From Escarpia spicata (Eukaryota > Annelida > Polychaeta > Sabellida > Siboglinidae), in the NCBI GenBank assembly GCA_963995525.1, contig OZ023205.1, positions 45,586,704 through 45,650,703 of the forward strand: DNA of 64,000 nt, read 5' to 3'. The notes beneath the pieces were generated by a model. That model made no database searches, was not told where the DNA came from, and saw only the letters and a list, made by a program, of their open reading frames with translations. The position numbers and the translations under genes are program-made. Below, piece after piece: positions 7,647 through 58,064 of this stretch. Position 1 is the first letter of the stretch. Each line of letters opens with the position of its first letter.

Positions 7647-7730
7647 CTAAGTACTTCCATCTTTCGGCACTGCTGAAGGGTGCATGCTACAGTCAGCATG
7701 GATGTAGCTCTGATTGCACATGAGTACAAG
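7647..7730 (-). CDS. LRR-84 exon, module U0
   Basis: This is a predicted 84-nt internal exon on the minus strand, with acceptor CTGTTTGCAG before it and donor GTGAGTTA after it. One leading C completes a codon from the previous exon, then 27 codons and two trailing bases follow, so the introns are in the same phase on both sides. It encodes LYSCAIRATSMLT, then VACTLQQ and CRKMEVL. The pattern of LxxCxI, a helix, then CRxMEVL is a ribonuclease-inhibitor-type LRR of 28 residues. LRRs of this kind form curved binding surfaces, for example in NLR immune receptors. The parent gene and its function are unknown, because no start, stop or other domain is linked to it. Confidence 0.7.
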   Translation of the reverse strand, partial: LVLMCNQSYIHADCSMHPSAVPKDGST

Positions 7731-8645
7731 CTGCAAACAGACATTGTTGAGACACTGGTGTACGTTTCACACAAGAAAGCATATAAAAGTTCATAGAACT
7801 GTATTCCATCAGATGTCCTGCTCCTGTCCAAGTCACTGGACCATATTTGTCACTTATTAACTGCAGTTAGATATCTGTTTTTACCACAATGCCACTATTG
7901 GGGTTATTGCATTTATGCGCACACTTCTTATTGTGCTTAACTTAGTGATATAATTTCTGCACAGTTAACTTAGTTGCAAGGCAGAAACAACAAAATACTG
8001 GAGACTTTGTAGTGCCGATATTGTTTTCACTGAATGTATAAAATAAGTTGTTATTAAATTAAGCAAATATACAAAATGTAGAAATGATGTGCCCTACATA
8101 TATAATATTAGAACAAAAGTAACAACCATATTTGAGTAATCAGAACCTCTCACAAGAAATTAACATATAATACTAAGTTATCATATTATTTATGATAATC
8201 AAAGTCACCCTATACATTTCATTGTTGTCAGATTGGGGAGTAACTCAGATAAAACAACACCTTTTTGTTCACAGAACTCAGCTTAACCTGGGAATGTGCG
8301 CTCCATGTGTAGTAGTGTCCAGAATCAAGGATGACCCACATTACATTAACATTATCTGAAACTGTGGGTCCATGCATATGATATATTTCTTATCAATTCC
8401 AGTTTGTTGTGCCGATGAGCGGAGGTTTCTGATTATTTAGGTATTATATTTATTGTTATTAGTTAGCATTATTATTATAATTATCTCTAATGTATGCAAA
8501 TGTCATGATATATGCATGCCAGTACAGTGCTACAATTAGGACTAGTCATGTGACACTCACTGCCCTATTGGCTGATCAATTGGCTGTTTACACTTCGAAG
8601 GGTTAACTTGTGGCTAATGTCAAAACAAGTAATGCAACCACTTAC
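7731..8645 (-). other. Intron between LRR-87 and LRR-84, U0
   Basis: This is a predicted 915-bp phase-2 intron, GTAAGT to TTTGCAG on the minus strand. It is AT-rich, has no recognised element and no coding potential, and is conserved in all seven modules. Confidence 0.6.
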
Positions 8646-8732
8646 TACAACTTCTGTAGAGATGGCATAGAGCTGATGCTGGTGGCCAGTGCTTCAGCGG
8701 CGTCTTGATCACTCAGGTCGTTTTGAGAGAGG
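8646..8732 (-). CDS. LRR-87 exon, module U0
   Basis: This predicted 87-nt exon (minus) lies 915 bp upstream of the U0 LRR-84 exon. Its acceptor is ACTTTGCAG and its donor GTAAGTGG. After one leading C it reads LSQNDLSDQDAAEAL, then ATSISSMPSLQKL, a 29-residue RNI-type LRR (LSxNxLSDE, alanine-rich helix, PSLxxL). Phase matches LRR-84, so splicing LRR-87 to LRR-84 gives a continuous 57-residue pair. This copy is the most diverged of the seven, with Q for E at two positions and QK for RE near the end. The longer open frame running through it (8645-8959) is intron read-through. Confidence 0.7.
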
Positions 8733-9266
8733 CTGCAAAGTATTCTTTTATTAATTAAAATAACAATATGTCCAGACATTATGCAAAACATAAGTATAAA
8801 AAACAATGTTACATTTACAAATACAGTGTAGACCTGACATGATCTGGACACCCAACAAACACAATCCTTATCGCCATAACCAAACATCAAATTGTGTGCA
8901 ACCATGTGCATATAAACCTGCTTCTGCAACTGGCTTATCCTGTCGTGAATAATCTCCAAATATGCATTGTGTGGCTAGTTTAAATAATATCCACAAATAG
9001 ATCGATATAAAAGTGCATATATTGATTTAAATTGTCGAAAGAATTTACTTTGGCCGTTACATCTTGTAACTGGCCAGCGTCAATTACTGGACTGAGAGTT
9101 ATCATTCAAAACCCAGTGCATTTCTTCATTACATGGTTTCTGAGATATCAGTAGGCCTAGTCGAAAACACAATGAAAGAATTACATTACATTACATGAAT
9201 TACATTACTGAGAAGGCACTTTTAACCAAAATACAATTTTTAGTAGAGGTGAGAACATTTGTTCGT

Positions 9267-9335
9267 GCAGTATGAAGTAACGTTTGCGAGTACACCACGG
9301 GAACTGAGGGGATGGTGGTTCAATTCCACATGCCA
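9267..9335 (+). mobile_element. tRNA-derived SINE head (copy 1)
   Basis: GTTTGCGAG followed about 45 nt later by GGTTCAATTCCAC resembles the A and B boxes of an RNA polymerase III tRNA promoter. The same segment recurs at 49101-49173 and 58597-58670 in equivalent positions beside LRR-87. There is no cloverleaf good enough for a real tRNA. Confidence 0.4.
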
Positions 9336-9339
9336 CCGT

Positions 9340-10160: not shown

Positions 10161-10161
10161 T

Positions 10162-12494: not shown

Positions 12495-12535
12495 GTGGTG
12501 ACGAGGACGCAGGGGGAAGAGCCGCATCTGTTCTT

Positions 12536-13260: not shown

Positions 13261-13449
13261 AAATGCTCAAAAGCTGGACACTTTGAAAGAGTGCCGCTCC
13301 ACGTCTACCTTTAAGCTAACACAATCAAAAGGTAAACCCAAGCCAAAGAAATATGAACAGAATCAAATTAGACATGTAGCCCGAAACACAAGTGATTCGT
13401 CAGACGTGGGAATATTTGCCGTCCATGGGAAGACAAACAACCCACTGTC

Positions 13450-14280
13450 ATGGTTACATTTGGTGATGAGCAGTCTGCAGTACAAATGGTTGTTGATTCT
13501 GGATGTCTGGAAAATCTTATTGATGAAGCAACATTGAGTTCATTCACTAGAAAACCAAATCTGAAAGAGTTGAACATCAAGCTATATCCATACTGCACGA
13601 CGAATCTGTTGGACATTTTTGGCAAGTTCAACAGCCGCATTCACTGTGAAGGACGTACAGTAGATGCTAATGTCTGTGTTGTCAAAGGTAGTGCCACATG
13701 TCTTATGAGTGCAAAGACAGCTAAAGCATTGAATCTCGTTGGAATCAAGTTCCAAGCAGTGAACAATGTTCGTGTAGTGCCATCATCATCTCAACAAATT
13801 CTGAATGAATTTGCAGACAAATTCACAGGAATTGGGAAGTTGAACGATTTCGAAATGAAATTGCGTGTAGACAACAAAGTGAAACCAGTTGCTCAACCAC
13901 ACCGAAGAGTTCCCTACTCGCTAAGAAAAAAGACTAGTACCAAGCTGCAAGAACTTGAGCAAGATGACATCATCGAACAGGTAGACGGACCTAAACCATG
14001 GGTGTCTCCCATTGTCAGCGCTCCGAAACCAAAGAATCCCGAAGAGATGCAATTGTGTGTAGACATGCGAGCTGTAAACAATGCCATTCAAAGAGAACGT
14101 CACATCACCCCAACCATCACTGAGGTGATTGCTGACATCAATGGGTCAATGCTATTCACGAAATTAGACCTGAATCAGTGGTATCACCAGTTGGAAGTTT
14201 ATCCTGAAAGTACACATCTGACTACGTTTTCAACTTATGACGGGTTGAGAAGATACAAACGCTTGAACTTTGGCATCTGA
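13450..14280 (+). pseudogene. Gypsy G2 protease and RT N-terminal half
   Basis: This open frame of 276 codons begins in an aspartic protease with VDSGCLENLID (active-site DSG) and passes through a linker to RT fingers and palm. It shows KPWVSPIVSAPKPKN, LCVDMRAVNNAI and FTKLDLNQWYHQLE, the last with the first catalytic aspartate. It stops at LNFGI just before the region that would carry the DD active site, which follows in a rearranged segment. This is the longest intact Gypsy frame in the window, but the polymerase is incomplete. Confidence 0.85.
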
Positions 14281-15239: not shown

Positions 15240-15975
15240 CATTACACACATACCACACACACATACACACGTGTGCACGAGCACACACGTACGCACGCAT
15301 GCAGGAACGAACACACACGCACACACACCAAACACACATAGACACACACACACCACACCACACCACACACACATAGACACACACGCGCACGCACGCACAC
15401 CACACACAGAGACCACACACACACACCTACATCACACACACAGAGACTACACACACCACACACAGAGACCATACACACAACACACACCATACACAAAGAC
15501 CACACACACACACCGCACACGCCGCACACGCCACACACACCACACACACCACACACACACCATACACACCGCACACACCACACACAGAGACCATACACAC
15601 AACACACACAGAGACCACACACACCGCACACGCCACAAACACCACACACACCACACACAGAGACCACACACACCACACACACCATACACACCACAGACAC
15701 CACACACAGAGACCACACACACACACCACAGACACCACACACAGAGACCACACACACCACACACAGAAACCATACACACAACACACACCACACACAGAAA
15801 CCACACACACACACACCGCACACACCGCACACGCCACACACGCCACACACACCACACACACCACACACACCACACACACCATACACACCACAGACACCAC
15901 ACACAGAGACCACACACATCACACACACCACACACACCACACACATCACACACACCACACACATCACACACACAC
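15240..15975. repeat. CA/CACC microsatellite array 2
   Basis: This is 735 bp of the same ACACACC/AGAGACC unit mixture as array 1, expanded and with CGCACACGCC variants. It abuts the 3-prime end of LINE-A2. Long Thr/His/Pro frames (up to 260 codons) are repeat artefacts. Confidence 0.95.
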
Positions 15976-17750
15976 ATGTAATACTATTATAGTCTTCGTA
16001 TATCTGGCTTCTTACTAGTCTTCTTTCTGAGCTCAGCTGCATCCCAGTCTGTTCCCACAAATCACCCACTCCCAGTGCTCCTGTAATTTCCCGGACTAAG
16101 TTCTTCTCAAAAACGTTTCACCTTAGCAGTTGCTGTTCTATCTATAAACGCAAATCATAAATGTTCGAATACTCGAATTCATCATCATCACTTATCAAAA
16201 TCTGTTATTATTTTTTATATAAGGAGTGTTTTAAAAATGCAAAAAGGTGTCACAACACTTTTTAGAACATCTCGTTTGTTTTATTTGACCCAGACATTTC
16301 AAATCAAAAAATGTATAAAGGTGTCACTCTATTATCGAGGACCATATTTCCGTGACATAGTGTTAACGAAGAAATCGGTTTTAAACCGCAAAATCTGGCT
16401 TGGGAGCTGATACAAATGTTAATGAAATGGTCTCCACAACCCAACACTTTTTAGAACATCTCATTTCACTTTGCAGAGCTCCTCGTAATCCATGTTTATT
16501 CTCCATTAATGTGGCAGGATCAGCAAATATATCCAAAAACTGTGTGGGCCAACCGGGCCTGTAACTTAACAGAAGACTGACGGGCCCCGAGCCCACGGAC
16601 CCACAGTTATGTCGAATGCTGGGTGTAAAGAATGAAAACCAAAGGTCCGAGAACAGAACCCTGGAGAACATCACATAAGGTGGGCAGTGCACCCGAAAAT
16701 AGATCCCAATCATTATGGTTTGGTATCTATCGGTTAGGTATGAAGAAAACCACCTGAGAGGTGTGCGATATATGCCATACCACTTTGATAAATGTTTAAT
16801 TAGAATGTTATGATCAATAATATCAAAGGCTGCAGAAAGATAAAGTAAGGTCACGGCAATTACTTTACTATCATTAATCATTAATTTTCAAGTTAATATC
16901 ACTGAATACTTTTAAAAGAGCCATTTCCATTGAATGAAATTGTTCATTTGCTAATTGTGACACATTAGTTAAGACATTTGTGCTATTGTAAGACCTTAGA
17001 TGGCTTGTTACAACGTTTTCTACTATTGTAGAAATAAAGCCAAGGTTAGAAATAGGTCTACAACTGTTTAGGTCTTGTTAGGCAGGGGTGACTTCTTAAA
17101 GAACTGAACTGACATGGGCGTATTTAAAGTCATCAGGAAAAAGCCAGAGAACAGTGCTGCATTAATGATATTTGTTAGAGGTCTGAGTAATGTACCAAGA
17201 CATGCTTCTAGCAGTATAGTCGGAAATGGATCATGAGCACAACACTTATTTGGGAGGACATAAATATTCTCCTCACTTCATCAACTGCTGCAGGTTCAAA
17301 TGACACAAGTAGAGAATTTACTTGTGGATTGTCCACATCTACAGTTCTTAAAATTATGACCTGGGAAAGCTGAGCGAATAGGACTGATTTTGCCCAGAAA
17401 CTGATTAGAAAATGAGTCACACAGAGACTTGATGCATGACTAGGTCGTGATGTAGCAGGCCATCTGAGTAGAATGTTATTGATGCAGTTCCATAACTGAC
17501 TTGAACTATTGGACTTATTCATGACCATAATATGGTCTTAATAAGCTGTGTAGTAATCTGACTTAGCTTTGGCCATTTGTCTGTTACAGAGGTGACATTG
17601 TTTAGAATAAGGTGACTTGTCCAGAGGTGAGCGTGCTTTGCATCTCACACTCTAAATAATGACGGAGCCTTTTAGGTAATAATATATTTGGAAGTCATTC
17701 ATGGAGCCAGTGGCCTTTGTGACACAAATTTGAATTTCATAGGTAACTTT
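15972..17750 (-). mobile_element. LINE-A2, 5-prime truncated
   Basis: This copy runs from the CA array to about 17750, where LINE-C sequence begins, so endonuclease and leader are lost. RT boxes are clearest at 16381-16881: LYLSAAFDIIDHNILIKHLS, KWYGIYRTPLRWFSSYLTD and a GVPQGSVLGP-type block in another frame. A 100-bp insertion relative to A1 (about 16270-16440) holds a second GTGTCAC stretch. No ADD box is found. Confidence 0.8.
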
Positions 17751-25496: not shown

Positions 25497-25580
25497 CCAA
25501 GTACTTCCATCTTTCGGCACTGCTGAAGGGCGCATGCTACAGACACCATGGATCTAGCTCCGATCGCACATGACTGCAAG
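25497..25580 (-). CDS. LRR-84 exon, module U1
   Basis: Encodes LQSCAIGARSMVSVA then CALQQCRKMEVL, 28 residues with the split codons. The acceptor is ATGTTTGCAG and the donor GTGAGTTT. It is intermediate between U0 (QQCRK) and the later copies (LQCRK). Confidence 0.7.
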
Positions 25581-26509
25581 CTGCAAACATACATATTTAC
25601 TACATTTGGTATATTTTACAACAACAAATGTAGAAGTTCATAAAACTGAATTCCAGTCAAATGTCCTGCTCCTGTCCAAGTCACTGGATCATATTTGTCA
25701 CTTATCAAGTGCAATTGTCTTTGTTTCACCGCAACGACACTATTGGGGTTATTGCATTTATGCACACAATTTTTATTGTGCTTAATTTGGTGATACCATT
25801 TCTGCAAAGTTAACTTAGTAGCAAGGCAGAAACAACAAAATACTGGAGACTTTGTAGTGCTGATATTGTTCTCACTGAATGTATAAAATAAGTTGTTATT
25901 GAATTAAGCAAATATACAAAATGTAGAAATGATGTGCCCTACATATATAATATTACAACAAAAGTAACAACTGTATTTCAGTAATCAGAACCTCTCACAA
26001 GAAATTAACATACAATACTAAGTTATCATATTATTTATAATTAGTATTATTTATGATAATCAAAGTCACCCTACACATTTCATTGTTGTCAGATTGGGGA
26101 GTAACTCAGATAAAACAACACCTTTTTGTTCACAGAACTCAGCTTATCCTGGGAATGTGCGCTCCGTGTGTAGTAGTGCCCAGAATCAAGGACGATCCAC
26201 ATTACATTAACATTATCTGAAACTGTGGGTCCATGCATATGATATATTTCTTATCAATTCCAGTTTGTTGTGCCGATGAGCGGAGGTTCCTGATTATTTA
26301 GGTATTATATTTATTGTTATTAGTTAGCATTATTATTATTATAATTATCTCTAATGTATGCAAATGTCATGATATATGCATGCCAGTACAGTGTTACAAT
26401 TAGGACTAGTCATGTGACACTCACTGCCCTATTGGCTGATCAATTGGTTGTTTACACTTCGAACGGTTAACTTGTGGCTAATGTCAAAACAAGTAATGCA
26501 ACCACTTAC

Positions 26510-26596
26510 TTTAACTCTCGTAGAGATGGCATAGAGCTGATGCTGGTGGCCAGCGCTTCAGCGGCGTCTTCATCACTCAGGTCGTTTTCAGAGAGG
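26510..26596 (-). CDS. LRR-87 exon, module U1
   Basis: Encodes LSENDLSDEDAAEAL then ATSISSMPSLREL, with AA as trailing bases. Joined to the C that starts LRR-84, this gives Asn, so the spliced text would read LREL-N-LQSCAIG, a normal LRR boundary. Donor GTAAGTGG, acceptor ACTTTGCAG. Confidence 0.7.
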
Positions 26597-27074
26597 CTGC
26601 AAAGTATTCTCTTACTAATTAAAATAACAATATGTCCAGACATTATGCAAAACATAAGTATAAAAAACAATGTTACATTTACAAATACAGTGTAGACCTG
26701 ACATGATCTGGACACCCAACAAACACAATCCTTATCGCCATAACCAAACATCAAATTGTGTGCAACCATGTGCATATAAACCTGCTTTTGCAACTGGCTT
26801 ATCCTGTCGTGAATAATCTCCAAATATGCATTGTGTGGCTAGTTTAAATAATATCCACAAATAGATTGATATAAAAGTGCATATATTGATTTTAATTGTC
26901 GAAAGAATTGACTTTGGCCGTTACATCTTGTAACTGGCCAGCGTCAATTACTGGACTGACAGTTATCCTTCAAAACACAGTGCATTTGTTCATTACATGG
27001 TTTTTGAGATATCAGTAGACCTAGTCGAAAACATAAAGTAAGAAAGACATTACATCAATTACATTACTGAGAAG

Positions 27075-28020
27075 TGTGAGAACATCACTATCATCATTTC
27101 TCTTTCTGATGGCTATTGACTGGACCATGAGAACAGCAGCATAAGGAAAATGGCATACTGTTCACTCTGGGGGAAACTAGATGAACTAGACTTTGTTGAT
27201 GATGTGGCTCTTCTTTCACACAACCAAAACCAAATGCAAGGAAAAACATCACTAATAGAAACAACTGCAGCCACCTTAGAATTAAAAGTGAACAAAGTGA
27301 ACAAAGGTAAAATCAAGATCATGAGAATGCTTGTAGAAAGGTAGAGAGTCATGATGGACAGAAAAATCTCAAAAAAGTTGAAAGGAAAGTCCTAAGAGTG
27401 TGTGTTACACCGGCATGCCTTTATGGTCTGAAAACAGTGGCGCTGACAGAACAACAACAAAAGAGGCTGCAAATTTGTGAGAACAACTGGGTTAGAAGAA
27501 TAACAAGAACAAAGAGGGTAGACAGAAGAAGAACAAATGACCTGAGAACAGAGGTTGGAATGCAATGTAATGTAACAGGAAGATTATTGAGAAGCTGGAT
27601 TAGATGGGCAGGCCAACTGGCAAGAATGGATGCCGAAAAAATAGCAAAGAGAGCAGAGGCGGAACAACATAAAGGACACAGGAAAAGGGGAAGGCCACAG
27701 TTGAGATGGGAGGTCTGTGTGAGGAGGGACATGAGAAGATCAGGGGAGGATGACCGATGGAGAGAGGGAGCGATGGACAGAAGATTATGTAAGGAAAAGA
27801 CACTGAGAATGGATCAGCTTGACTGTACTTGACCCTCACCCCTGTACCCAGGGAACAAGGAGGAGAGCAACATTTTGCGTAATGAATGGAACAGGGTTTC
27901 AGTATTTCTTCTCGTTGGTGACTAGTGAGGTAGGCTGTTTGTCTACTACACATCAATTATTTGCAGAAATTGTCACCTCGCAGCTCAACAGCATAAACCC
28001 TTGAAACAACTTACAAGCTA
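27075..28020 (+). mobile_element. LINE-E fragment, U1
   Basis: This is a 5-prime-deleted non-LTR element on the plus strand. It has RT block SLWGKLDELDFVDDVALLSH (27150 on) with the FVDD active site, a frame break, then a 144-codon C-terminal frame (27398-27832: CVTPACLYGLKTVALTE, NNWVRRITRTKR, RKRGRPQLRWEVCVRRD) and a 3-prime UTR. The clade is not certain (RTE/Jockey-like). The sequence upstream of GVRTSLSPFLFL is missing here but present in U5 and U6. Confidence 0.8.
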
Positions 28021-28990
28021 CAACTAATGCATCACATTGGTTATATAAATCTTTGTCGTGATCATCTGTTCTGAAACCAAGAACTCATACACATTCACAC
28101 ATACACTCATTACACAAAATGTTCTCATAGAGTAAGTACCACACAAAAGTTTGGGGACCTAACCATGAATCACGCAATATGATTAACACAAAAATGAGCT
28201 GATGGTACACACATTATACGTATAAATATCTAGAAGTCATACACATTCACATGTACACTCATTACACGAAATGTTGTCATAGCATAAGTTCCAGACAAAC
28301 GTTTGGGTATCTAAACATAAATGGTGATGTTATATCATTATTATCGGATAGTTTACCACTATTGCTCATCTTAATGCAATCATTCACAACATTTATTAAA
28401 AAGCCATAAACCACAATTAACCAATGATAAGCAGTGTTGCCAAGATATCTTTAGAAAATCCATCGTCAAATAGTACCGCAAATTATCGTCATATCCTAAA
28501 TTAATGTAATGTGTAATGTGAATGTTCTATTCTAAATGTTACAAATCAAGTGGTTTCAAGAAATGCACTATTTTAAACAATGATGATGTCAGTTGTATTA
28601 CTACGGAAGTTACTGTATTGTAAAGAATGTACAATTGCCTTTTTCAACTTACGAAATGTAGATTTTATTTATTATACCAGTACATATCTCGCCAATAATT
28701 TTATCACATGCACAACCAACTTATACATTATCGACCAGAATTGAGGCAGGAGTGTGAAACATCTGCATGAAATGGTTTTAAATGTCGGTGGAATTGTGTA
28801 ATCTTTCCAACTGATCATTTTGTTATAGCTGAGTCACCATGCACAATCACTTGTTGGCAGACAGGATACTCATATCTTACGTAAGACTAAGACCAGCCTA
28901 AATTCAAGGCTACGATTTGTGCATTAAAATAACTTCAAGGTCGTCTGAAATAATGTGTGGTTGTTTCTTTATTCATGTAAGGTTATTCAT
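28021..28990. other. Type A tail, non-coding
   Basis: No exon, element or RNA gene is recognised. A loose direct repeat (CATACACATTCACA and TACACTCATTACAC) occurs near 28085 and 28240. The same sequence follows LINE-E in U3, U4 and U6. Confidence 0.6.
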
Positions 28991-28998
28991 CAAACGTC

Positions 28999-29208
28999 TT
29001 GAACAATTTCAATAGCGTATGCTCACAGCTATTTTGGGAATCTGCACCACTAGCATTGTGCCACTGGGGGTCAACAGAAATGGTACAAAGACTAAATGAA
29101 AACAAACATGCAAATGCAACAAGTGTGTACAAAATCAGTGTGGAGCTTCTTGAACTAAACCGACCTGTCCAAGAAGCAAAAGAGAGAGAGATGAGAGAGA
29201 GGGGGTGA
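28999..29208 (+). other. Conserved short open frame running into the GA tract
   Basis: The open frame NNFNSVCSQLFWESAPLAL through VELLELNRPVQEAKERE recurs in U3 (40343), U4 (45660) and U6 (61828, one V to L change). It has no upstream ATG; the track start is TTG. No homology is recognised. It may be a decayed exon or chance. Confidence 0.2.
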
Positions 29209-29480
29209 GAGAGGAGGAGAGAGGGTGGTGAGAGAGGTGTGAGTGAAGAGAGAGGGGGTGAGTGAAGAGAGAGAGGGTGAGAGAGAAGGGGGAGAGTGAG
29301 ACAGACGGGGAAGAGAGGGAGCGAGAGAGGGGATGGTGAGAGAGAAGGGGGAGAGAGGGGAAGAGAGGGGGATAGAGGTAGTGAAATACATAGATGAAGT
29401 GATGGGAGAGAGGAGGAGAGGGTACAGGGAGAATAAGGGGAAGGAAAGAGAGCAAGAGAGGGGCAGGAGAGGGAATGTCA
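29180..29480. repeat. GA-rich tract, U1
   Basis: About 300 bp of GAGAGGGGGAGA-type purine sequence, with copies at 40524-40825, 45841-46140 and 61999-62300. Minus-strand Ser/Leu/Pro frames are its shadows. Confidence 0.9.
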
Positions 29481-29523
29481 TAGCCAAAAGTTGTTGCTAA
29501 GTTAGGTACCTGCAGTGAGTGAG

Positions 29524-29784
29524 CACCTGCCTAATGCGACCTACATAAACTGGTTTTTATATGTGTAACAGGGCAAGTAATTACAAGTGTTACACCTTTT
29601 TTGCTATTTTTCAATTTATAACTTAATAATTAGCTACTTTATTATGTTTGTTGTTGTTGTTGAAATTAAGTTTCATTCATTAAAAAACTGGTACAGGACA
29701 TACTAAAACATCGCCATATCACGTCAGCTGTCGGACCACACCTAATTCTCTGAACACCTGCCTAATGTGACCTACATAAACTGG
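29524..29784. repeat. 201-bp insert between 30-bp direct repeats, U1
   Basis: CACCTGCCTAATGCGACC and the bases following it form a 30-bp repeat at 29524-29553 and 29755-29784 with one mismatch. The insert (29554-29754) is an extra copy of the unit start (30162-30357). U6 has the single, empty site at 62344-62373. Confidence 0.85.
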
Positions 29785-30805: not shown

Positions 30806-30889
30806 ACAAGTACTTCCATCTTTCGGCACTGCAGCAAGGCGCATGCTACAGACGCCATGGATCTAGCTCCGATTGCACATGACTGCAAG
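30806..30889 (-). CDS. LRR-84 exon, module U2
   Basis: Encodes LQSCAIGARSMASVA then CALLQCRKMEVL with trailing GT before donor GTGAGTTA. The acceptor is CTGTTTGCAG. The frame is unaffected by the nearby DIRS insertion. Confidence 0.7.
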
Positions 30890-35010: not shown

Positions 35011-35039
35011 CTTACAAGCTACAACAAATGCATCACATT

Positions 35040-35960
35040 GATTATATAAATCTTTGTCGTGATCATCATGTTTCCCACATTATAAGGTGTGTTTTATGGT
35101 GTTCAAATATACACTTGCACAAGTGTCTAAATCATAGAAGGAATGGCTTCAACAGAAGAACTGGGAAAACTCATGTTCATTATATGTTTGAATAGGTTAG
35201 ATTACAAAGGGTTAAAAATCTGTAAAAAAAAAGCTTCAATTTGCAGTTATGAACAGTCTCTGAAAAGTGAAAAGGCATTGGCATGTGAATGTTCATTTTG
35301 TCAACAGCAGTTGCCATGCTTGTGTGCTACAATACAAATTTCAAGAAAATCTGAGGTTACAGGATTTTTTAAAGGTCAAGTCAAAAGTCAAACTTGTTTT
35401 TAAAATATCTTTTCCCTATTATTAAGTGTGTTTTATGGTGTCCAAATATTCAAAATGTGTATCTTTTATGCTACAAATATCAACAGTGCATTTAAAATGT
35501 AATAACTCTGGAAATATTTAATGGGCGTGATAACCATCATAATGTACTGTTTTGCAAATTTTGATGTGTGTTTGATTGATAGGTCGTCAGGTAATCAAGG
35601 TTGGGACATGATTTCATCAGAAGCAAAGACGATAATGTAAATTATAGATTGATTTGATATGGAATATCCAAAATTTTACTTCCTAAAAAGTTATATACAG
35701 TAACTCAAAAATTATATCACTGATTTTGTATTCAAATTTCAATTTAGCTTCAATTTAGCTTCAGACATATTATACAAAATGTAAAACAAAACAGATCAGC
35801 AATTTTAAATTGTCATTCACATCATTAGTACATGGTAAGTGCTTCAACTATTCTCATTAAAAATCCCACCACACTGTTGGATGCACAGCACAATCGCATG
35901 TTTAGAACAAAAGGATGTATTGCACAATAGGATGTTTAGCACAACATCAAGAGGCAGAAA
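35040..35960. other. Type B tail, U2
   Basis: AT-rich sequence with an open frame at 35143-35403 (86 codons, starting MASTEELGKLMFII from a true ATG) also present at 55269. No domain is recognised; it ends in poly-Lys and Ser/Gln-rich text and is probably non-coding. TAAGGTGTGTTTTATGGTGT (35083 on) has a diverged direct copy about 342 bp further right. Confidence 0.4.
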
Positions 35961-36838: not shown

Positions 36839-36922
36839 ACAAGTACTTCCATCTTCCGACACTGCAGCAAGGCGCATGCTACAGACGCCATGGATCTAGC
36901 TCTGATTGCACATGACTGCAAG
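36839..36922 (-). CDS. LRR-84 exon, module U3
   Basis: Encodes LQSCAIRARSMASVA then CALLQCRKMEVL. Relative to U2 there is one replacement (G to R) and silent changes in the Cys-Arg codons (TGT CGG for TGC CGA). Splice signals intact. Confidence 0.7.
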
Positions 36923-37851: not shown

Positions 37852-37938
37852 TATAACTCTCGTAGAGATGGCATAGAGCTGATGCTGGTGGCCAGCGCTT
37901 CAGCGGCGTCTTCATCACTCAGGTCGTTTTCAGAGAGG
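37852..37938 (-). CDS. LRR-87 exon, module U3
   Basis: Identical at protein level to U1 and U2 (LSENDLSDEDAAEAL start, PSLREL end), trailing TA, donor GTAAGTGG. Confidence 0.7.
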
Positions 37939-38416
37939 CTGCAAAGTATTCTCTTACTAATTAAAATAACAATATGTCCAGACATTATGCAAAACATAAG
38001 TATAAAAAACAATGTTACATTTACAAATACAGTGTAGACCTGACATGATCTGGACACCCAACAAACACAATCCTTATCGCCATAACCAAACATCAAATTG
38101 TGTGCAACCATGTGCATATAAACCTGCTTTTGCAACTGGCTTATCCTGTCGTGAATAATCTCCAAATATGCATTGTGTGGCTAGTTTAAATAATATCCAC
38201 AAATAGATTGATATAAAAGTGCATATATTGATTTTAATTGTCGAAAGAATTGACTTTGGCCGTTACATCTTGTAACTGGCCAGCGTCAATTACTGGACTG
38301 ACAGTTATCCTTCAAAACACAGTGCATTTGTTCATTACATGGTTTTTGAGATATCAGTAGACCTAGTCGAAAACATAAAGTAAGAAAGACATTACATCAA
38401 TTACATTACTGAGAAG

Positions 38417-39360
38417 TGTGAGAACATCACTATCATCATTTCTCTTTCTGATGGCTATTGACTGGACCATGAGAACAGCAGCATAAGGAAAATGGCATAC
38501 TGTTCACTCTGGGGGAAACTAGATGAACTAGACTTTGTTGATGATGTGGCTCTTCTTTCACACAACCAAAACCAAATGCAAGGAAAAACATCACTAATAG
38601 AAACAACTGCAGCCACCTTAGAATTAAAAGTGAACAAAGTGAACAAAGGTAAAATCAAGATCATGAGAATGCTTGTAGAAAGGTAGAGAGTCATGATGGA
38701 CAGAAAAATCTCAAAAAAGTTGAAAGGAAAGTCCTAAGAGTGTGTGTTACACCGGCATGCCTTTATGGTCTGAAAACAGTGGCGCTGACAGAACAACAAC
38801 AAAAGAGGCTGCAAATTTGTGAGAACAACTGGGTTAGAAGAATAACAAGAACAAAGAGGGTAGACAGAAGAAGAACAAATGACCTGAGAACAGAGGTTGG
38901 AATGCAATGTAATGTAACAGGAAGATTATTGAGAAGCTGGATTAGATGGGCAGGCCAACTGGCAAGAATGGATGCCGAAAAAATAGCAAAGAGAGCAGAG
39001 GCGGAACAACATAAAGGACACAGGAAAAGGGGAAGGCCACAGTTGAGATGGGAGGTCTGTGTGAGGAGGGACATGAGAAGATCAGGGGAGGATGACCGAT
39101 GGAGAGAGGGAGCGATGGACAGAAGATTATGTAAGGAAAAGACACTGAGAATGGATCAGCTTGACTGTACTTGACCCTCACCCCTGTACCCAGGGAACAA
39201 GGAGGAGAGCAACATTTTGCGTAATGAATGGAACAGGGTTTCAGTATTTCTTCTCGTTGGTGACTAGTGAGGTAGGCTGTTTGTCTACTACACATCAATT
39301 ATTTGCAGAAATTGTCACCTCGCAGCTCAACAGCATAAACCCTTGAAACAACTTACAAGC
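38417..39360 (+). mobile_element. LINE-E fragment, U3
   Basis: Matches the U1 fragment at nearly every base, including FVDD and the unbroken 144-codon C-terminal frame (38740-39174). Confidence 0.8.
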
Positions 39361-41134
39361 TACAACTAATGCATCACATTGGTTATATAAATCTTTGTCG
39401 TGATCATCTGTTCTGAAACCAAGAACTCATACACATTCACACATACACTCATTACACAAAATGTTCTCATAGAGTAAGTACCACACAAAAGTTTGGGGAC
39501 CTAACCATGAATCACGCAATATGATTAACACAAAAATTAGCTGATGGTACACACATTATACGTATAAATATCTAGAAGTCATACACATTCACATGTACAC
39601 TCATTACACGAAATGTTGTCATAGCATAAGTTCCAGACAAACGTTTGGGTATCTAAACATAAATGGTGATGTTATATCATTATTATCGGATAGTTTACCA
39701 CTATTGCTCATCTTAATGCAATCATTCACAACATTTATTAAAAAGCCATAAACCACAATTAACCAATGATAAGCAGTGTTGCCAAGATATCTTTTGAAAA
39801 TCCATCGTCAAATAGTAGCGCAAATTATCGTCATATCCTAAATTAATGTAATGTGTAATGTGAATGTTCTATTCTAAATGTTACAAATCAAAAGTGGTTT
39901 CAAGAAATGCACTATTTTAAACAATGATGATGTCAGTTGTATTACTACGGAAGTTACTGTATTGTAAAGAATGTACAATTGCCTTTTTCAACTTACGAAA
40001 TGTAGATTTTATTTATTATACCAGTACATATCTCGCCAATAATTTTATCACATGCACAACCAACTTATACATTATCGACCAGAATTGAGGCAGGAGTGTG
40101 AAACATCTGCATGAAATGGTTTTAAATGTCGGTGGAATTGTGTAATCTTTCCAACTGATCATTTTGTTATAGCTGAGTCACCATGCACAATCACTTGTTG
40201 GCAGACAGGATACTCATATCTTACGTAAGACTAAGACCAGCCTAAATTCAAGGCTAAAATTTGTGCATTAAAATAACTTCAAGGTCGTCTGAAATAATGT
40301 GTGGTTGTTTCTTTATTCATGTAAGGTTATTCATCAAACGTCTTGAACAATTTCAATAGCGTATGCTCACAGCTATTTTGGGAATCTGCACCACTAGCAT
40401 TGTGCCACTGGGGGTCAACAGAAATGGTACAAAGACTAAATGAAAACAAACATGCAAATGCAACAAGTGTGTACAAAATCAGTGTGGAGCTTCTTGAACT
40501 AAACCGACCTGTCCAAGAAGCAAAAGAGAGAGAGATGAGAGAGAGGGGGTGAGAGAGGAGGAGAGAGGGTGGTGAGAGAGGTGTGAGTGAAGAGAGAGGG
40601 GGTGAGTGAAGAGAGAGAGGGTGAGAGAGAAGGGGGAGAGTGAGACAGACGGGGAAGAGAGGGAGCGAGAGAGGGGATGGTGAGAGAGAAGGGGGAGAGA
40701 GGGGAAGAGAGGGGGATAGAGGTAGTGAAATACATAGATGAAGTGATGGGAGAGAGGAAGAGAGGGTACAGGGAGAATAAGGGGAAGGAAAGAGAGCAAG
40801 AGAGGGGCAGGAGAGGGAATGTCATAGCCAAAAGTTGTTGCTAAGTTAGGTACCTGCAGTGAGTGAGCACCTGCCTAATGCGACCTACATAAACTGGTTT
40901 TTATATGTGTAACAGGGCAAGTAATTACAAGTGTTACACCTTTTTTGCTATTTTTCAATTTATAACTTAATAATTAGCTACTTTATTATGTTTGTTGTTG
41001 TTGTTGTTGTTGAAATAAAGTTTCATTCATAAAAAAACTGGTACAGGACATACTAAAACATCGCCATATCACGTCAGCTGTCGGACCACACCTAATTCTC
41101 TGAACACCTGCCTAATGTGACCTACATAAACTGG
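39361..41134. repeat. Type A tail with GA tract and 30-bp-flanked insert, U3
   Basis: Non-coding sequence as in U1, a GA-rich tract at 40524-40825, and the insert between 30-bp repeats at 40868-40897 and 41105-41134. TTG microsatellite at 40989 is longer than in U1. Confidence 0.8.
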
Positions 41135-42155: not shown

Positions 42156-42239
42156 ACAAGTACTTCCATCTTCCGACACTGCAGCAAGGCGCATGCTACA
42201 GACGCCATGGATCTAGCTCTGATTGCACATGACTGCAAG
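42156..42239 (-). CDS. LRR-84 exon, module U4
   Basis: Same sequence as U3 by eye, as expected from tandem duplication (offset 5317). Confidence 0.7.
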
Positions 42240-43168: not shown

Positions 43169-43255
43169 TATAACTCTCGTAGAGATGGCATAGAGCTGAT
43201 GCTGGTGGCCAGCGCTTCAGCGGCGTCTTCATCACTCAGGTCGTTTTCAGAGAGG
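43169..43255 (-). CDS. LRR-87 exon, module U4
   Basis: Same sequence as the U3 exon, with the same splice signals. Confidence 0.7.
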
Positions 43256-43733
43256 CTGCAAAGTATTCTCTTACTAATTAAAATAACAATATGTCCAGAC
43301 ATTATGCAAAACATAAGTATAAAAAACAATGTTACATTTACAAATACAGTGTAGACCTGACATGATCTGGACACCCAACAAACACAATCCTTATCGCCAT
43401 AACCAAACATCAAATTGTGTGCAACCATGTGCATATAAACCTGCTTTTGCAACTGGCTTATCCTGTCGTGAATAATCTCCAAATATGCATTGTGTGGCTA
43501 GTTTAAATAATATCCACAAATAGATTGATATAAAAGTGCATATATTGATTTTAATTGTCGAAAGAATTGACTTTGGCCGTTACATCTTGTAACTGGCCAG
43601 CGTCAATTACTGGACTGACAGTTATCCTTCAAAACACAGTGCATTTGTTCATTACATGGTTTTTGAGATATCAGTAGACCTAGTCGAAAACATAAAGTAA
43701 GAAAGACATTACATCAATTACATTACTGAGAAG

Positions 43734-44680
43734 TGTGAGAACATCACTATCATCATTTCTCTTTCTGATGGCTATTGACTGGACCATGAGAACAGCAGCA
43801 TAAGGAAAATGGCATACTGTTCACTCTGGGGGAAACTAGATGAACTAGACTTTGTTGATGATGTGGCTCTTCTTTCACACAACCAAAACCAAATGCAAGG
43901 AAAAACATCACTAATAGAAACAACTGCAGCCACCTTAGAATTAAAAGTGAACAAAGTGAACAAAGGTAAAATCAAGATCATGAGAATGCTTGTAGAAAGG
44001 TAGAGAGTCATGATGGACAGAAAAATCTCAAAAAAGTTGAAAGGAAAGTCCTAAGAGTGTGTGTTACACCGGCATGCCTTTATGGTCTGAAAACAGTGGC
44101 GCTGACAGAACAACAACAAAAGAGGCTGCAAATTTGTGAGAACAACTGGGTTAGAAGAATAACAAGAACAAAGAGGGTAGACAGAAGAAGAACAAATGAC
44201 CTGAGAACAGAGGTTGGAATGCAATGTAATGTAACAGGAAGATTATTGAGAAGCTGGATTAGATGGGCAGGCCAACTGGCAAGAATGGATGCCGAAAAAA
44301 TAGCAAAGAGAGCAGAGGCGGAACAACATAAAGGACACAGGAAAAGGGGAAGGCCACAGTTGAGATGGGAGGTCTGTGTGAGGAGGGACATGAGAAGATC
44401 AGGGGAGGATGACCGATGGAGAGAGGGAGCGATGGACAGAAGATTATGTAAGGAAAAGACACTGAGAATGGATCAGCTTGACTGTACTTGACCCTCACCC
44501 CTGTACCCAGGGAACAAGGAGGAGAGCAACATTTTGCGTAATGAATGGAACAGGGTTTCAGTATTTCTTCTCGTTGGTGACTAGTGAGGTAGGCTGTTTG
44601 TCTACTACACATCAATTATTTGCAGAAATTGTCACCTCGCAGCTCAACAGCATAAACCCTTGAAACAACTTACAAGCTAC
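43734..44680 (+). mobile_element. LINE-E fragment, U4
   Basis: Tandem copy of the U3 fragment; C-terminal frame 44057-44491 intact. Confidence 0.8.
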
Positions 44681-46451
44681 AACTAATGCATCACATTGGT
44701 TATATAAATCTTTGTCGTGATCATCTGTTCTGAAACCAAGAACTCATACACATTCACACATACACTCATTACACAAAATGTTCTCATAGAGTAAGTACCA
44801 CACAAAAGTTTGGGGACCTAACCATGAATCACGCAATATGATTAACACAAAAATTAGCTGATGGTACACACATTATACGTATAAATATCTAGAAGTCATA
44901 CACATTCACATGTACACTCATTACACGAAATGTTGTCATAGCATAAGTTCCAGACAAACGTTTGGGTATCTAAACATAAATGGTGATGTTATATCATTAT
45001 TATCGGATAGTTTACCACTATTGCTCATCTTAATGCAATCATTCACAACATTTATTAAAAAGCCATAAACCACAATTAACCAATGATAAGCAGTGTTGCC
45101 AAGATATCTTTTGAAAATCCATCGTCAAATAGTAGCGCAAATTATCGTCATATCCTAAATTAATGTAATGTGTAATGTGAATGTTCTATTCTAAATGTTA
45201 CAAATCAAAAGTGGTTTCAAGAAATGCACTATTTTAAACAATGATGATGTCAGTTGTATTACTACGGAAGTTACTGTATTGTAAAGAATGTACAATTGCC
45301 TTTTTCAACTTACGAAATGTAGATTTTATTTATTATACCAGTACATATCTCGCCAATAATTTTATCACATGCACAACCAACTTATACATTATCGACCAGA
45401 ATTGAGGCAGGAGTGTGAAACATCTGCATGAAATGGTTTTAAATGTCGGTGGAATTGTGTAATCTTTCCAACTGATCATTTTGTTATAGCTGAGTCACCA
45501 TGCACAATCACTTGTTGGCAGACAGGATACTCATATCTTACGTAAGACTAAGACCAGCCTAAATTCAAGGCTAAAATTTGTGCATTAAAATAACTTCAAG
45601 GTCGTCTGAAATAATGTGTGGTTGTTTCTTTATTCATGTAAGGTTATTCATCAAACGTCTTGAACAATTTCAATAGCGTATGCTCACAGCTATTTTGGGA
45701 ATCTGCACCACTAGCATTGTGCCACTGGGGGTCAACAGAAATGGTACAAAGACTAAATGAAAACAAACATGCAAATGCAACAAGTGTGTACAAAATCAGT
45801 GTGGAGCTTCTTGAACTAAACCGACCTGTCCAAGAAGCAAAAGAGAGAGAGATGAGAGAGAGGGGGTGAGAGAGGAGGAGAGAGGGTGGTGAGAGAGGTG
45901 TGAGTGAAGAGAGAGGGGGTGAGTGAAGAGAGAGAGGGTGAGAGAGAAGGGGGAGAGTGAGACAGACGGGGAAGAGAGGGAGCGAGAGAGGGGATGGTGA
46001 GAGAGAAGGGGGAGAGAGGGGAAGAGAGGGGGATAGAGGTAGTGAAATACATAGATGAAGTGATGGGAGAGAGGAAGAGAGGGTACAGGGAGAATAAGGG
46101 GAAGGAAAGAGAGCAAGAGAGGGGCAGGAGAGGGAATGTCATAGCCAAAAGTTGTTGCTAAGTTAGGTACCTGCAGTGAGTGAGCACCTGCCTAATGCGA
46201 CCTACATAAACTGGTTTTTATATGTGTAACAGGGCAAGTAATTACAAGTGTTACACCTTTTTTGCTATTTTTCAATTTATAACTTAATAATTAGCTACTT
46301 TATTATGTTTGTTGTTGTTGTTGTTGTTGAAATAAAGTTTCATTCATAAAAAAAATGGTACAGGACATACTAAAACATCGCCATATCACGTCAGCTGTCG
46401 GACCACACCTAATTCTCTGAACACCTGCCTAATGTGACCTACATAAACTGG
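44681..46451. repeat. Type A tail with GA tract and insert, U4
   Basis: GA-rich at 45841-46140; 30-bp repeats at 46185-46214 and 46422-46451 around the extra unit-start copy. Confidence 0.8.
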
Positions 46452-47472: not shown

Positions 47473-47556
47473 ACAAGTACTTCCATCTTCCGACACTGCA
47501 GCAAGGCGCATGCTACAGACGCCATGGATCTAGCTCTGATTGCACATGACTGCAAG
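47473..47556 (-). CDS. LRR-84 exon, module U5
   Basis: Same as U3 and U4. It lies inside the part of U5 homogenised by the tandem duplication, unlike its partner LRR-87 exon. Confidence 0.7.
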
Positions 47557-48485: not shown

Positions 48486-48572
48486 TATAACTCTCGTAGA
48501 GATGGCATAGAGCTAATGCTGGTGGCCAACGCTTCAGCGGCGTCTTGATCACTCAGGTCGTTTTGAGAGAGG
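48486..48572 (-). CDS. LRR-87 exon, module U5
   Basis: Encodes LSQNDLSDQDAAEAL then ATSISSMPSLREL. It shares the two Gln residues with U0 but the RE ending with U1-U4. Several codon third positions differ (TTG for CTG, ATT for ATC) without changing residues. Donor GTAAGTGG, acceptor TTTGCAG. Confidence 0.7.
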
Positions 48573-53880: not shown

Positions 53881-53887
53881 ATTTTAG

Positions 53888-55150
53888 ATAGGGTGAAAAC
53901 AGCAGTTGACTCAAAACTGAGGGATCACCAGGCAGGATTCCGACAGGAAAGATCATTCACTGACCCGATAACAAACCTACACATCATAATTGAGCTGTAT
54001 ATGGAATGGAACTCTCCCGCATATGCTAATTATATCGACTTTGAAAAAGCTTTCGACTGCGTAGACCGTGACGCTATGTGGAAATTGATGACATTACGGA
54101 ATTCTAGAGAAGTTCATCTCCATAATCAAAAGCACATACAAGGGAATGACCTGCAGAATCCTGCATCAAGGGAATACTACAGACAAGTTTGATGTAAAGA
54201 CAGGTGTGAGAACATCACTATCACCATTTATCTTTCTGATGGCTATTGACTGGACCATGAGAACAGCTACATAAGGAAAATGGCATACTGTTCACTCTGG
54301 GGGAAACTAGAAGAACTAGACTTTGTTGATAATGTGGCTCTTCTTTCACACAACCAAAACCAAATGCAAGGAAAAACATCACTAATAGAAACAACTGCAG
54401 CCACCTTAGAATTAAAAGTGAACAAAGTGAACAAAGGTAAAATCAAGATCATGAGAATGCTTGTAGAAAGGTAGAGAGTCATGATGGACAGAAAAATCTC
54501 AAAAAAGTTGAAAGGAAAGTCCTAAGAGTGTGTGTTACACAGGCATGCCTTTATGGTCTGAAAACAGTGGCGCTGACAGAACAACAACAGAGGCTGCAAA
54601 TTTGTGAGAACAACTGGGTTAGAAGAATAACAAGAACAAAGATGGTAGATAGAAGAAGAACAAATGACCTGAGAACAGAGGTTGGAATGCAATGTAATGT
54701 AACAGGAAGATTATTGAGAAGCCGGATTAGATGAGCAGGCCAATTGGCAAGAATGGATGCCGAAAAAATAGCAAAGAGAGCAGAGGCGGAACAACATAAA
54801 GGACACAGGAAAAGGGGAAGGCCACAGTTGAGATGGGAGGTCTGTGTGAGGAGGGACATGAGAAGATCAGGGGAGGATGACCGATGGAGAGAGGGAGCGA
54901 TGGACAGAAGATTATGGAAGGAATAGACACTGAGAATGGATCAGCTTGACTGTACTTGACCCTCACCCCTGTACCCAGGGAACAAGGAGGAGAGCAACAT
55001 TTTGCGTAATGAATGGAACAGGGTTTCAGTATTTCTTCTCGTTGGTGACTAGTGAGGTGGGCTGTTTGTCTACTACACGTCAATTATTTGCAGAAATTGT
55101 CACCTCGCAGCTCAACAGCATAAACCCTTGAAACAACTTACAAGCTACAA
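53888..55150 (+). mobile_element. LINE-E, longer copy, U5
   Basis: It includes the RT N-terminal boxes (LRDHQAGFRQERSFTDPI, ANYIDFEKAFDCVDRDAMWK) missing from U1-U4, then GVRTSLSPFIFLMAIDW and FVDNVALLSH. The second Asp of the active-site pair is Asn. A 1-bp shift breaks the RT frame after MWKLM, and the C-terminal frame has the same TGA as U2 plus a 3-bp deletion. Confidence 0.8.
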
Positions 55151-55165
55151 CAAATGCATCACATT

Positions 55166-56100
55166 GATTATATAAATCTTTGTCGTGATCATCATGTTTC
55201 CCACATTATAAGGTGTGTTTTATGGTGTTCAAATATACACTTGCACAAGTGTCTAAATCATAGAAGGAATGGCTTCAACAGAAGAACTGGGAAAACTCAT
55301 GTTCATTATATGTTTGAATAGGTTAGATTACAAAGGGTTAAAAATCTGTAAAAAAAAAGCTTCAATTTGCAGTTATGAACAGTCTCTGAAAAGTGAAAAG
55401 GTATTGGCATGTGAATGTTCATTTTGTCAACAGCAGTTGCCATGCTTGTGTGCTACAATACAAATTTCAAGAAAATCTGAGGTTACAGGATTTTTTAAAG
55501 GTCAAGTCAAAAGTCAAACTTGTTTTTAAAATATCTTTTCCCTATTATTAAGTGTGTTTTATGGTGTCCAAATATTCAAAATGTGTATCTTTTATGCTAC
55601 AAATATCAACAGTGCATTTAAAATGTAATAACTCTGGAAATATTTAATGGGCGTGATAACCATCATAATGTACTGTTTTGCAAATTTTGATGTGTGTTTG
55701 ATTGATAGGTCGTCAGGTAATCAAGGTTGGGACATGATTTCATCAGAAGCAAAGACGATAATGTAAATTATAGATTGATTTGATATGGAATATCCAAAAT
55801 TTTACTTCCTAAAAAGTTATATACAGTAACTCAAAAATTATATCACTGATTTTGTATTCAAATTTCAATTTAGCTTCAATTTAGCTTCAGACATATTATA
55901 CAAAATGTAAAACAAAACAGATCAGCAATTTTAAATTGTCATTCACATCATTAGTACATGGTAAGTGCTTCAACTATTCTCATTAAAAATCCCACCACAC
56001 TGTTGGATGCACAGCACAATCGCATGTTTAGAACAAAAGGATGTATTGCACAATAGGATGTTTAGCACAACATCAAGAGGCAGAAAAACTCAGTAGTGCA
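55166..56100. other. Type B tail, U5
   Basis: Counterpart of 35040-35960 at an offset of 20126; the 86-codon frame (55269-55529) has one A to V change. Confidence 0.5.
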
Positions 56101-56964
56101 GAAATATAAAACAGGAAGACTGTGTGAAGGGGGATGTGAGAACTTCAGAGGAGGATCTAGGATGGAGAGGGGGCTCAGAAGGGAATAACCAAAGAAAATA
56201 AGAACACGTAGAAGTCCAAAGGCATGAACCATATGTCAAAGGAGAAAGACTGTTGTACAAGGAGGTGCACATGCCAAAATTTGTACTGTGTTATACAATA
56301 TTATAGAGGTTTTTATATGTGTAACAGGGCAAGTAATTACAAGTGTTACACCTTTTTTGCTATTTTTCAATTTATAATTTAATAATTAGCTACTTTATTA
56401 TGTTTGTTGTTGTTGAAATGAAGTTTCATTCATTAAAAAACTGGTACAGGACATACTAAAACATCGCCATATCACGTCAGCTGTCAGACCACACCTAATT
56501 CTCTGAATTAGGAGGGACACGTCATCAGCAAAAAAGCAAATGTTCAGAAATCTGCAAGCGTAATAGGGGTCTAGCAGAGTAGTTGTGGGTCATACCATTT
56601 TCTTTGATATTAACATAAATCACTAAAACAGGCAGAATTCATTCTGAAATTGTGTTATTATTTTAGGTACTGTAAAAAAATGTGTAGAGATCATAACATT
56701 CACTTTAACTACAGCAAACCAGAAATTAATCACAACTTCAAACATTGATCAGCATCTAGCAAATATATGTATATATACATAATAGGTTATCCAAGTATTC
56801 TTTCTAAAGTCCACCACACAATACCATTTTTAGCACAATGAACCCATCACAAGTTGGTAACTCTTGTGCCCCACTGCATGGTGTCTTTAGTAAAGGTACT
56901 GTCTCTATGAGTTGGTGAAGAACACTGTTTACAAAAGGTTTGATCATAAAGAACTATAACTCAC

Positions 56965-57048
56965 GCAAGTACTTCCATCTTTCGGCACTGCAGCAAGGCG
57001 CATGCTACAGACGCCATGGATCTAGCTCCGATTGCACATGACTGCAAG
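56965..57048 (-). CDS. LRR-84 exon, module U6
   Basis: Protein text as U2 (LQSCAIGARSMASVA, CALLQCRKMEVL), trailing GC before donor GTGAGTTA, acceptor CTGTTTGCAG. Confidence 0.7.
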
Positions 57049-57977
57049 CTGCAAACAGACATTTTTACTACATTTGGTATCTGTTTTACATAAAAAAATA
57101 CAGAAGTTAATAAAATTGAATTCCAGTCAAATGTCCTGCTCCTGTCCAAGTCACTGGATCATATTTGTCACTTATCAACTGCAACTGTCTTTTTTTAACC
57201 GCAGCAATACTATTGGGGTCATTGCATTGATGCGCACAATTCAATATTATGATTAATTTTGTGATACCATTTCTGCACAGTTAACTTAGTAGCAAGGCAG
57301 AAACAACAAAATACTAGAGACTTTATAGTGCTGATATTGTTTTCACTGAACGTGTAAAATATGTTGTTATTGAATTAAGCAAATATACAAAATGTAGAAA
57401 TGATGTGCCCTACATATATAATATTACAACAAAAGTAACAACTGTATTTCAGTAATCAGAACCTCTCACAAGAAATTAACATACAATACTAAGTTATCAT
57501 ATTATTTATAATTAGTATTATTTATGATAATCAAAGTCACCCTACACATTTCATTGTTGTCAGATTGTGGAGTAACTCAGATAAAACAACACCTTTTTGT
57601 TCACAGAACTCAGCTTAACCTGGGAATCTGCGCTCCATGTGTAGTAGTGCCCAGAATCAAGGACGATCCACATTACATTAACATTATCTGAAACTGTGGG
57701 TCCATGCATATGATATATTTCTTATCAATTCCAGTTTGTTGTGCCGATGAGCGGAGGTTTCTGATTATTTAGGTATTATATTTATTGTTATTAGTTAGCA
57801 TTATTATAATAATTATCTCTAATGTATGCAAATGTCATGATATATGCATGCCAGTACAGTGTTACAATTAGGACTAGTCATGTGACACTCACTGCCCTAT
57901 TGGCTGATCAATTGGTTGTTTACACTTCGAACGGTTAACTTGTGGCTAATGTCAAAACAAGTAATGCAACCACTTAC

Positions 57978-58064
57978 TTTAACTCTCGTAGAGATGGCAT
58001 AGAGCTGATGCTGGTGGCCAACGCTTCAGCGGCCTCTTGGTCACTCAGGTCATTCTCAGAGAGG
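57978..58064 (-). CDS. LRR-87 exon, module U6
   Basis: Encodes LSENDLSDQEAAEAL then ATSISSMPSLREL, with D to E and E to Q conservative changes. The acceptor has lost one base (ACTTTCAG instead of ACTTTGCAG) but still ends in CAG at the same exon edge, so exon length and phase are kept. Trailing AA as in U1. Confidence 0.7.

Follow-up and report, generated by a model that had tools for sequence, protein, structure and literature searches.

The 64,000-bp stretch of DNA analyzed here, hereafter the window, comes from the siboglinid annelid Escarpia spicata (contig OZ023205.1, below C1, positions 45,586,704–45,650,703; assembly of 1.06 Gb in 1,097 contigs). It probably lies inside the half of an animal NLR (NACHT–LRR) gene that encodes leucine-rich repeats (LRRs), the gene having one NACHT exon and alternating LRR exons of two types, A and B, amplified as tandem blocks; we give this reading a probability of roughly 0.8. 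Coordinates without a contig name count from the first letter of the window and are continued beyond its ends.

LRR Exons of the Window

The minus strand of the window carries 14 LRR exons, seven of 87 nt (A) and seven of 84 nt (B). Read from right to left, they form unit 58 (A, 57978–58064; B, 56965–57048), unit 48 (A, 48486–48572; B, 47473–47556), unit 43 (A, 43169–43255; B, 42156–42239), unit 37 (A, 37852–37938; B, 36839–36922), unit 33 (A, 33511–33597; B, 30806–30889), unit 26 (A, 26510–26596; B, 25497–25580) and unit 8 (A, 8646–8732; B, 7647–7730), the last being the most diverged. The initial annotation had proposed seven 87/84-nt pairs flanked by AG and GT(A/G)AGT on this strand, and its edges proved correct to the base in 14/14 cases. 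Every exon has an AG acceptor (TTTCAG in exon A of unit 58) and a GT donor, the donor reading GTAAGT after all 87-mers and GTGAGT after all 84-mers, and no exon contains a stop in the LRR frame (0/14). All consist of 1 nt, whole codons and 2 nt, that is, phase 2 at both ends; the common intron phase of the two exon types, claimed earlier, thus holds in 14/14 with the frame open. Spliced from right to left, the exons yield 398 open residues, A contributing 29 (including the junction codon) and B 28. Typical peptides of a pair are LSENDLSDEDAAEALATSISSMPSLREL(Y/N) for A and LQSCAIGARSMASVACALLQCRKMEVL(V/A/G/S) for B.

A search profile that combines 18 repeats, taken from ribonuclease inhibitor and a designed LRR protein, with one repeat of our own per exon type ranks exactly these 14 exons at the top of the 2,398 six-frame open segments of the window, and finds no further LRR exon among them. 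Scores are at least 19.8 bits for 12/14 exons, 14.5 for 8646–8732 and 11.5 for 7647–7730; 30 Markov-simulated windows reach 16.9 bits at best and 9.0 on average. Since the two low scores fall within the simulated range, the exons of this oldest unit are recognized through homology to their sister copies. The curated LRR_6 profile, searched against the whole genome at E 0.001, gives six matches and none in the window, because an exon on its own is too short to reach that cut-off. A third LRR exon considered in the A–B intron, with 81 open nucleotides after an acceptor-like site (8029, 25874 and corresponding positions) but no donor, was dropped; its peptide scores −1.1 bits, and 1,230 of 2,000 shuffles do equally well or better. 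Neither Rfam nor tRNA scanning gives any result in the window, and no relatives of the LRR pair are confirmed in viral_contigs or genome_contigs. CpG in the window stands at 0.43 of expectation, which, together with the NACHT and Death-domain matches of the genome, is in keeping with an animal.

Ribonuclease-Inhibitor-Like Repeats

Joined exon peptides match the Pfam family PF13516 (LRR_6) with 54.5 bits (cut-off 23.4), which bears out the assignment of the 29- and 28-residue units to LRRs. In the PDB, the list of relatives is headed by ribonuclease inhibitor (4peq, 1.2e-21), together with a designed LRR protein, and continues with NLRP9, NLRP14, NLRP5 and NLRC4, with other LRR proteins such as RanGAP interspersed; NLRP3 is also listed. 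Judged by these matches, the exons encode LRRs of the ribonuclease-inhibitor/NLR type, A corresponding to the 29-residue N-type repeat and B to the 28-residue C-type repeat. Alternation of 29- and 28-residue repeats of the RI-like class is described for NLRP1 and ribonuclease inhibitor (PMC4598782). When the residues of ribonuclease inhibitor are aligned, its N-type and C-type repeats, like those of NLRP proteins, alternate as in the present array.

Vertebrate ribonuclease inhibitor and NLRP genes carry two repeats per exon of about 171 nt, whereas here each repeat has its own exon. The locus shares the 29/28 alternation with ribonuclease inhibitor itself, but does not look like a gene for a free-standing LRR protein without NACHT: an in-phase NACHT exon lies upstream and would belong to the same gene.

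NACHT Exon and Extent of the Array

A genome search for NACHT domains, in which 106 of 1,083 candidates were scored, gives at least 64 matches, one of them at C1:45,836,280–45,836,759 on the minus strand. The corresponding exon occupies about 248,704–250,353 on that strand, 184.7 kb past the window end and upstream of the array, so that a NACHT domain is present on the side and strand where the initial annotation had predicted it. The exon matches PF05729 with 98.6 bits (cut-off 26.7), and its top PDB relatives are NLRP-type structures (NLRP3, NLRP1 and others; E 1e-18 to 1e-21). Winged-helix and HD2 matches follow in the right order, below their cut-offs (PF17779, 20.2 bits against 23.1; PF17776, 21.9 against 33.1). 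The exon ends with ...NYHIKSL AG|GTAAGT, a phase-2 donor matching the LRR exons, the first of which begins with TTTCAG|T about 6 kb downstream. Because a NACHT exon with a donor in the phase of the LRR exons lies upstream on the same strand, we classify the locus from its sequence as an NLR locus; both the NACHT domain and same-strand, phase-compatible C-terminal RI-like LRRs are found.

In total, 318 kb were read as sequence, including a main block of 264 kb (the window and 100 kb on each side); the unread parts are about 54 kb at 164.0k–217.8k (C1:45,750,704–45,804,499) and everything left of −120k (below C1 45,466,704). The main block contains 32 A and 32 B exons, all on the minus strand and in strict ABAB order, with AG/GT in 64/64 and stops in 0/64. 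Joined, they give 1,823 open residues with no stop at a junction. Fifteen distinct A and 12 distinct B sequences occur among them, forming three subfamilies: A1B1 (14 pairs), A2B2 (7) and A3B3 (11). The rule that the junction codon always reads NNC, and hence is never a stop, was rejected as a general one and is true of the 14 window exons only; the first exon base is C in 35 of the 64 exons and T or G in the rest, and in this larger set the safety of the junction codon rests on which exons adjoin.

Outside the main block there are two further pairs, at −100.8k and −110.3k, and a group of seven diverged exons nearest to the NACHT exon (242.6k to 220.7k, in the order A B A B A B A); all 11 of these C1 exons have splice signals and an open frame. 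The 318 kb thus hold 75 exons, with AG/GT in 75/75 and a stop in none. These were located through open segments, a procedure that decayed exons could escape, and a frame-blind blastn search of the 27 distinct exon sequences against the 318 kb (E 0.01) was therefore added. It finds no decayed copies, recovering 70/75 exons and nothing else, and the five missed are diverged ones nearest to NACHT.

A protein search of the genome, with 150 of 200 candidates scored, yields at least 77 matches on the C1 minus strand between 45,409,215 and 45,813,241 (our own count from 146 rows). Of these, 69 are exons already read, while seven strong matches and one weak one lie in the unread parts. Since 75 exons were read and the seven strong matches add to them, the locus holds at least 82 LRR exons over about 430 kb. 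The view of the window as part of an LRR-coding gene therefore stands, with its extent underestimated: the window carries 14 of at least 82 exons.

Probable Amplification of Exon Pairs

Self comparison shows that 51,963 of the 64,000 window bases have another copy within the window, and that the seven units are long segmental duplicates. Units 37, 43 and 48 follow each other at a tandem spacing of 5,317 bp; the other units are spaced more closely or more widely. In the array as a whole the tandem blocks measure about 5.3, 9.1 and 9.5 kb. The 9.52-kb units are 99.95% identical in 3/3 comparisons, and neighbors in the 9.1-kb array 97.0–99.99% identical.

The two halves of a unit differ in their nearest relative, as judged by intron-site divergence. 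For the A half, units 26, 33, 37 and 43 are 0.1–0.2% apart, with units 48, 58 and 8 about 3% distant from them; for the B half, units 37, 43 and 48 group together (0.5–1.3%) and unit 33 joins unit 58 (0.7%). Difference profiles of unit pairs, computed without unit 33 with its insertion in this intron, place the switch in relatedness within the A–B intron on the minus strand, at about 25,800–25,972 in unit 26 coordinates, which we take as the probable recombination junction zone. The amplified block would then run from one A–B intron to the next, each event carrying one A and one B exon, and because the junction lies in the A–B intron, whole 57-residue pairs would be gained in frame. The earlier proposal of growth by segmental duplication agrees with both the self comparison and the junction analysis. 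Unequal crossing-over and conversion have been proposed in general terms to drive the concerted evolution of repeats (PMC5120217).

A 105-bp minisatellite of 12.9 copies at about 231,837–233,200 contains an acceptor-like site and most of an A exon without a donor, and its final copy continues into a complete LRR exon at 231.9k. This truncated exon beside an intact one shows that useless duplication occurs at the locus.

Gene Model and Its Alternatives

We propose that the gene consists of one NACHT exon followed by single-repeat, symmetric phase-2 LRR exons in which 29-residue A and 28-residue B repeats alternate. Near NACHT these exons are few (seven seen) and diverged, and farther away they form a large young array of three A–B subfamilies. 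Tandem blocks of about 5.3, 9.1 and 9.5 kb would be gained and lost by recombination, with the junction in the A–B intron as in the window, so that the LRR number would shift by whole 57-residue pairs with the frame intact and intron transposons would be amplified along with the blocks. One transcript may join NACHT to many, or even to all, array exons, producing a very long LRR solenoid that could sense microbial or danger ligands, its variation presumably arising from copy number and from exchange between copies.

In its boldest form, which we consider rather unlikely, the model would have one NLR gene carrying over 80 one-repeat LRR exons, enough for about 2,900 residues when every exon is joined, and providing a copy-number-variable, possibly alternatively spliced recognition repertoire, with one or more sister arrays on another chromosome. 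Were this so, phase-2 symmetry would allow any number of exon pairs to be left out, selected or added; Dscam-like exon arrays would be the counterpart of such an LRR exon repertoire.

Several observations weigh against the proposed model. Spacing from A to A reaches 29 kb in transposon-rich DNA, which is long for one gene. Neither a last exon nor a 5′ end nor an effector domain turned up in the parts examined: no Death match lies near C1:45.8 Mb among 45 genome matches (104/104 candidates scored), and the one open reading frame (ORF) scanned in the 8 kb upstream of the NACHT exon has no Pfam match. Given the share of NACHT candidates scored, a further NACHT exon in the unread parts is possible. 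Within the window, exon divergence is not lower than intron divergence, and the overall ratio of nonsynonymous to synonymous changes (N:S), 18:13, does not differ significantly from the neutral expectation of about 70% N (P = 0.089). The B subfamilies show dN/dS of 0.64–3.03, on few synonymous changes, and the absence of stops in the window alone has a chance probability of 0.25. The absence of exon indels there (chance 0.72 for A and 0.36 for B) is neutral or adverse, as are the densities of variable sites: 14/87 in exon A against 62/1,011 in introns, denser in the exon (P = 0.0016), and 16/84 in exon B against 84/552 (P = 0.42). The excess in exon A falls mainly on third codon positions (8646–58064), of which 8/29 vary against 60/1,011 adjacent intron sites (P = 0.0003), the sites being partly clustered. 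Protein-level selection does not explain this excess, and patchy exchange with other A subfamilies is our guess.

The continuous array transcript could instead be replaced by several separate LRR genes, or by one gene with alternatively chosen blocks, a possibility that we judge clearly the less probable. The three block types, differing in unit length and subfamily, and A-to-A spacings that are in some places 17–29 kb would fit it. Strand, phase and A–B alternation are nevertheless unbroken over 64 exons, and the 318 kb read contain no second NACHT.

It is rather unlikely, in our estimation, that the array is mostly dead, with a few pairs near NACHT in use and the distal pairs being recent non-functional duplicates that have not yet decayed. 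Many units are indeed 98–99.99% identical and thus too young for decay, their introns are full of transposon pieces, divergence in the window exons equals or exceeds that of the introns, and the minisatellite described above is itself a useless duplication. Against this stand the splice signals and open frames of 75/75 exons, retained although synonymous divergence (dS) in the A subfamilies is 0.58–0.97 (dN/dS 0.28–0.44), the sense codon found at every junction in the order of the 64 exons, and the frame-blind search, which finds no decayed relative in 318 kb. LRR scaffold residues are also spared: window exons have an N:S of 0:6 at 14 scaffold positions and 18:7 elsewhere (P = 0.0023).

Residues vary in the window at 6/10 positions of the concave beta-face and at 8/47 elsewhere (P = 0.0096). 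Over the 264 kb, the 27 distinct exons show on average 3.10 different residues per position on the concave face, more than the 1.82 at other positions (P = 0.026), and 1.29 in the scaffold, fewer than at other positions (P = 0.015; 3/14 scaffold positions vary), the concave and scaffold sets having been taken from the LRR consensus, but after the translations had been viewed. Variable residues favor the concave face; positive selection was considered as a reading of this pattern.

An assembly artefact, with haplotypes or misplaced reads placed end to end as near-identical tandem copies, is very improbable: the identities of the 9.52-kb and 9.1-kb units would suit it, but window copies differ in substitutions, indels and insertions (such as the DIRS-like one in unit 33), the 64 exons fall into 15 different A sequences and 12 different B sequences, and the layout is seen again on another contig (C13) with different units.

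Sister Loci

A second NACHT match on C1 (46,003,036, minus strand) has an open exon 95.8% identical over 551 residues to the one described above and an identical donor; at least seven LRR matches follow downstream on its own strand, by our count from the protein search. A third one (46,110,716, plus strand) is followed by at least 13 LRR matches, again by our count and known from matches rather than from exon edges. In the region of the third NACHT (C1:46,110,716–46,229,142, opposite orientation), LRR scores equal those of A3B3 and A2B2 array exons, which suggests recent copying between inverted neighbors.

On C13, a NACHT match at 9,980,086 (minus strand) is 44.7% identical and has the donor AA|GTAAGT. 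LRR matches downstream of it fall into blocks at 9.454–9.537 Mb and 9.831–9.956 Mb (9,453,717–9,536,819 and 9,830,970–9,955,955), which take up at least 112 of the 138 listed rows (own count) in a search that admitted E values up to 0.1 and scored 150 of 214 candidates. In a 6-kb sample, A exons of 87 nt and B exons of 84 nt are arranged in 2,645-bp units, with AG/GT, phase-2 edges and an open frame in 5/5 exons. The lower block has no NACHT nearby among the NACHT matches listed (106 of 1,083 candidates scored).

Comparison with Known NLR Families

In NOD1/NOD2/NLRC3-type genes, exons of about 84 nt each encode a single LRR. The present locus likewise has one repeat per exon, but alternates 87 and 84 nt and has far more exons.

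In zebrafish NLR-B30.2 (NLR-C) genes of groups 2b and 4, one large NACHT exon is followed by single-exon LRRs in variable number, one LRR type occurring more than 20 times, in a family shaped by gene conversion (PMC4852459). The order of a NACHT exon and then one-LRR exons of variable number is the same in E. spicata. The present locus differs in having at least 82 LRR exons at one place, two alternating lengths and pairwise amplification in 5–9-kb blocks; no Fisna match is listed for its NACHT exon, no search aimed at B30.2 or Fisna exons having been made. The same paper names expanded NLR families in sponge, sea urchin, lancelet and coral (PMC4852459), with many NACHT genes per genome, a feature shared by E. 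spicata with its at least 64 NACHT matches. Literature searches within short year ranges returned no alternating 87/84-nt exon-pair array of comparable size. Our verdict is that this NLR locus follows a known exon-array layout in a new form, with an extreme number of exons.

Single-repeat exons of 84–87 nt scattered among transposons escape ORF lists, and the LRR halves of animal NLR genes may consequently be undercounted. The locus also shows how an LRR domain can grow through an exon-pair unit and an intronic junction with the frame kept. It makes two ideas testable, namely that pair number differs between individuals and that one gene yields different LRR sets through splicing.

Transposons and Repeats in the Window

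A retroelement piece (31193–32946, plus strand) lies in the A–B intron of unit 33, alone among the window units and without a counterpart at the matching place of unit 43; it brings this intron to 2,621 nt. Its ORFs are tyrosine-recombinase-like (31522–32511) and RNase-H-like (31106–31627), with Pfam matches below cut-offs (PF00589, 22.3 bits against 27.1; PF13456, 16.7 against 21.6), and the DIRS-like label is our own reading of the insertion. No relatives of the recombinase-like ORF are confirmed in viral_contigs, the one collection searched for it.

The B–A introns contain a block copied together with the exons (27074–29554, plus strand, by self comparison), which we read ourselves as that of a long interspersed nuclear element (LINE). 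It recurs at 38416–40898, 43733–46215 and 59915–62374, and in shorter form at 34075–35066 and 54204–55198. The ORF at 27311–27829 in this block has no Pfam match, and no relatives of a LINE-like ORF are confirmed in viral_contigs or genome_contigs.

Pieces of a Ty3-like retroelement lie at 13396–14277 and 702–1920; the reverse transcriptase ORF resembles structures of Ty3 type (1.1e-12 and 2.3e-13). An integrase-core match at 1376–1699 is below its cut-off, and a 51-bp tandem repeat lies within the Ty3-like piece at 1323–1477. Long CA-rich satellite tracts at 2847–3309 and 15311–15976 account for several of the longer ORFs of the window.

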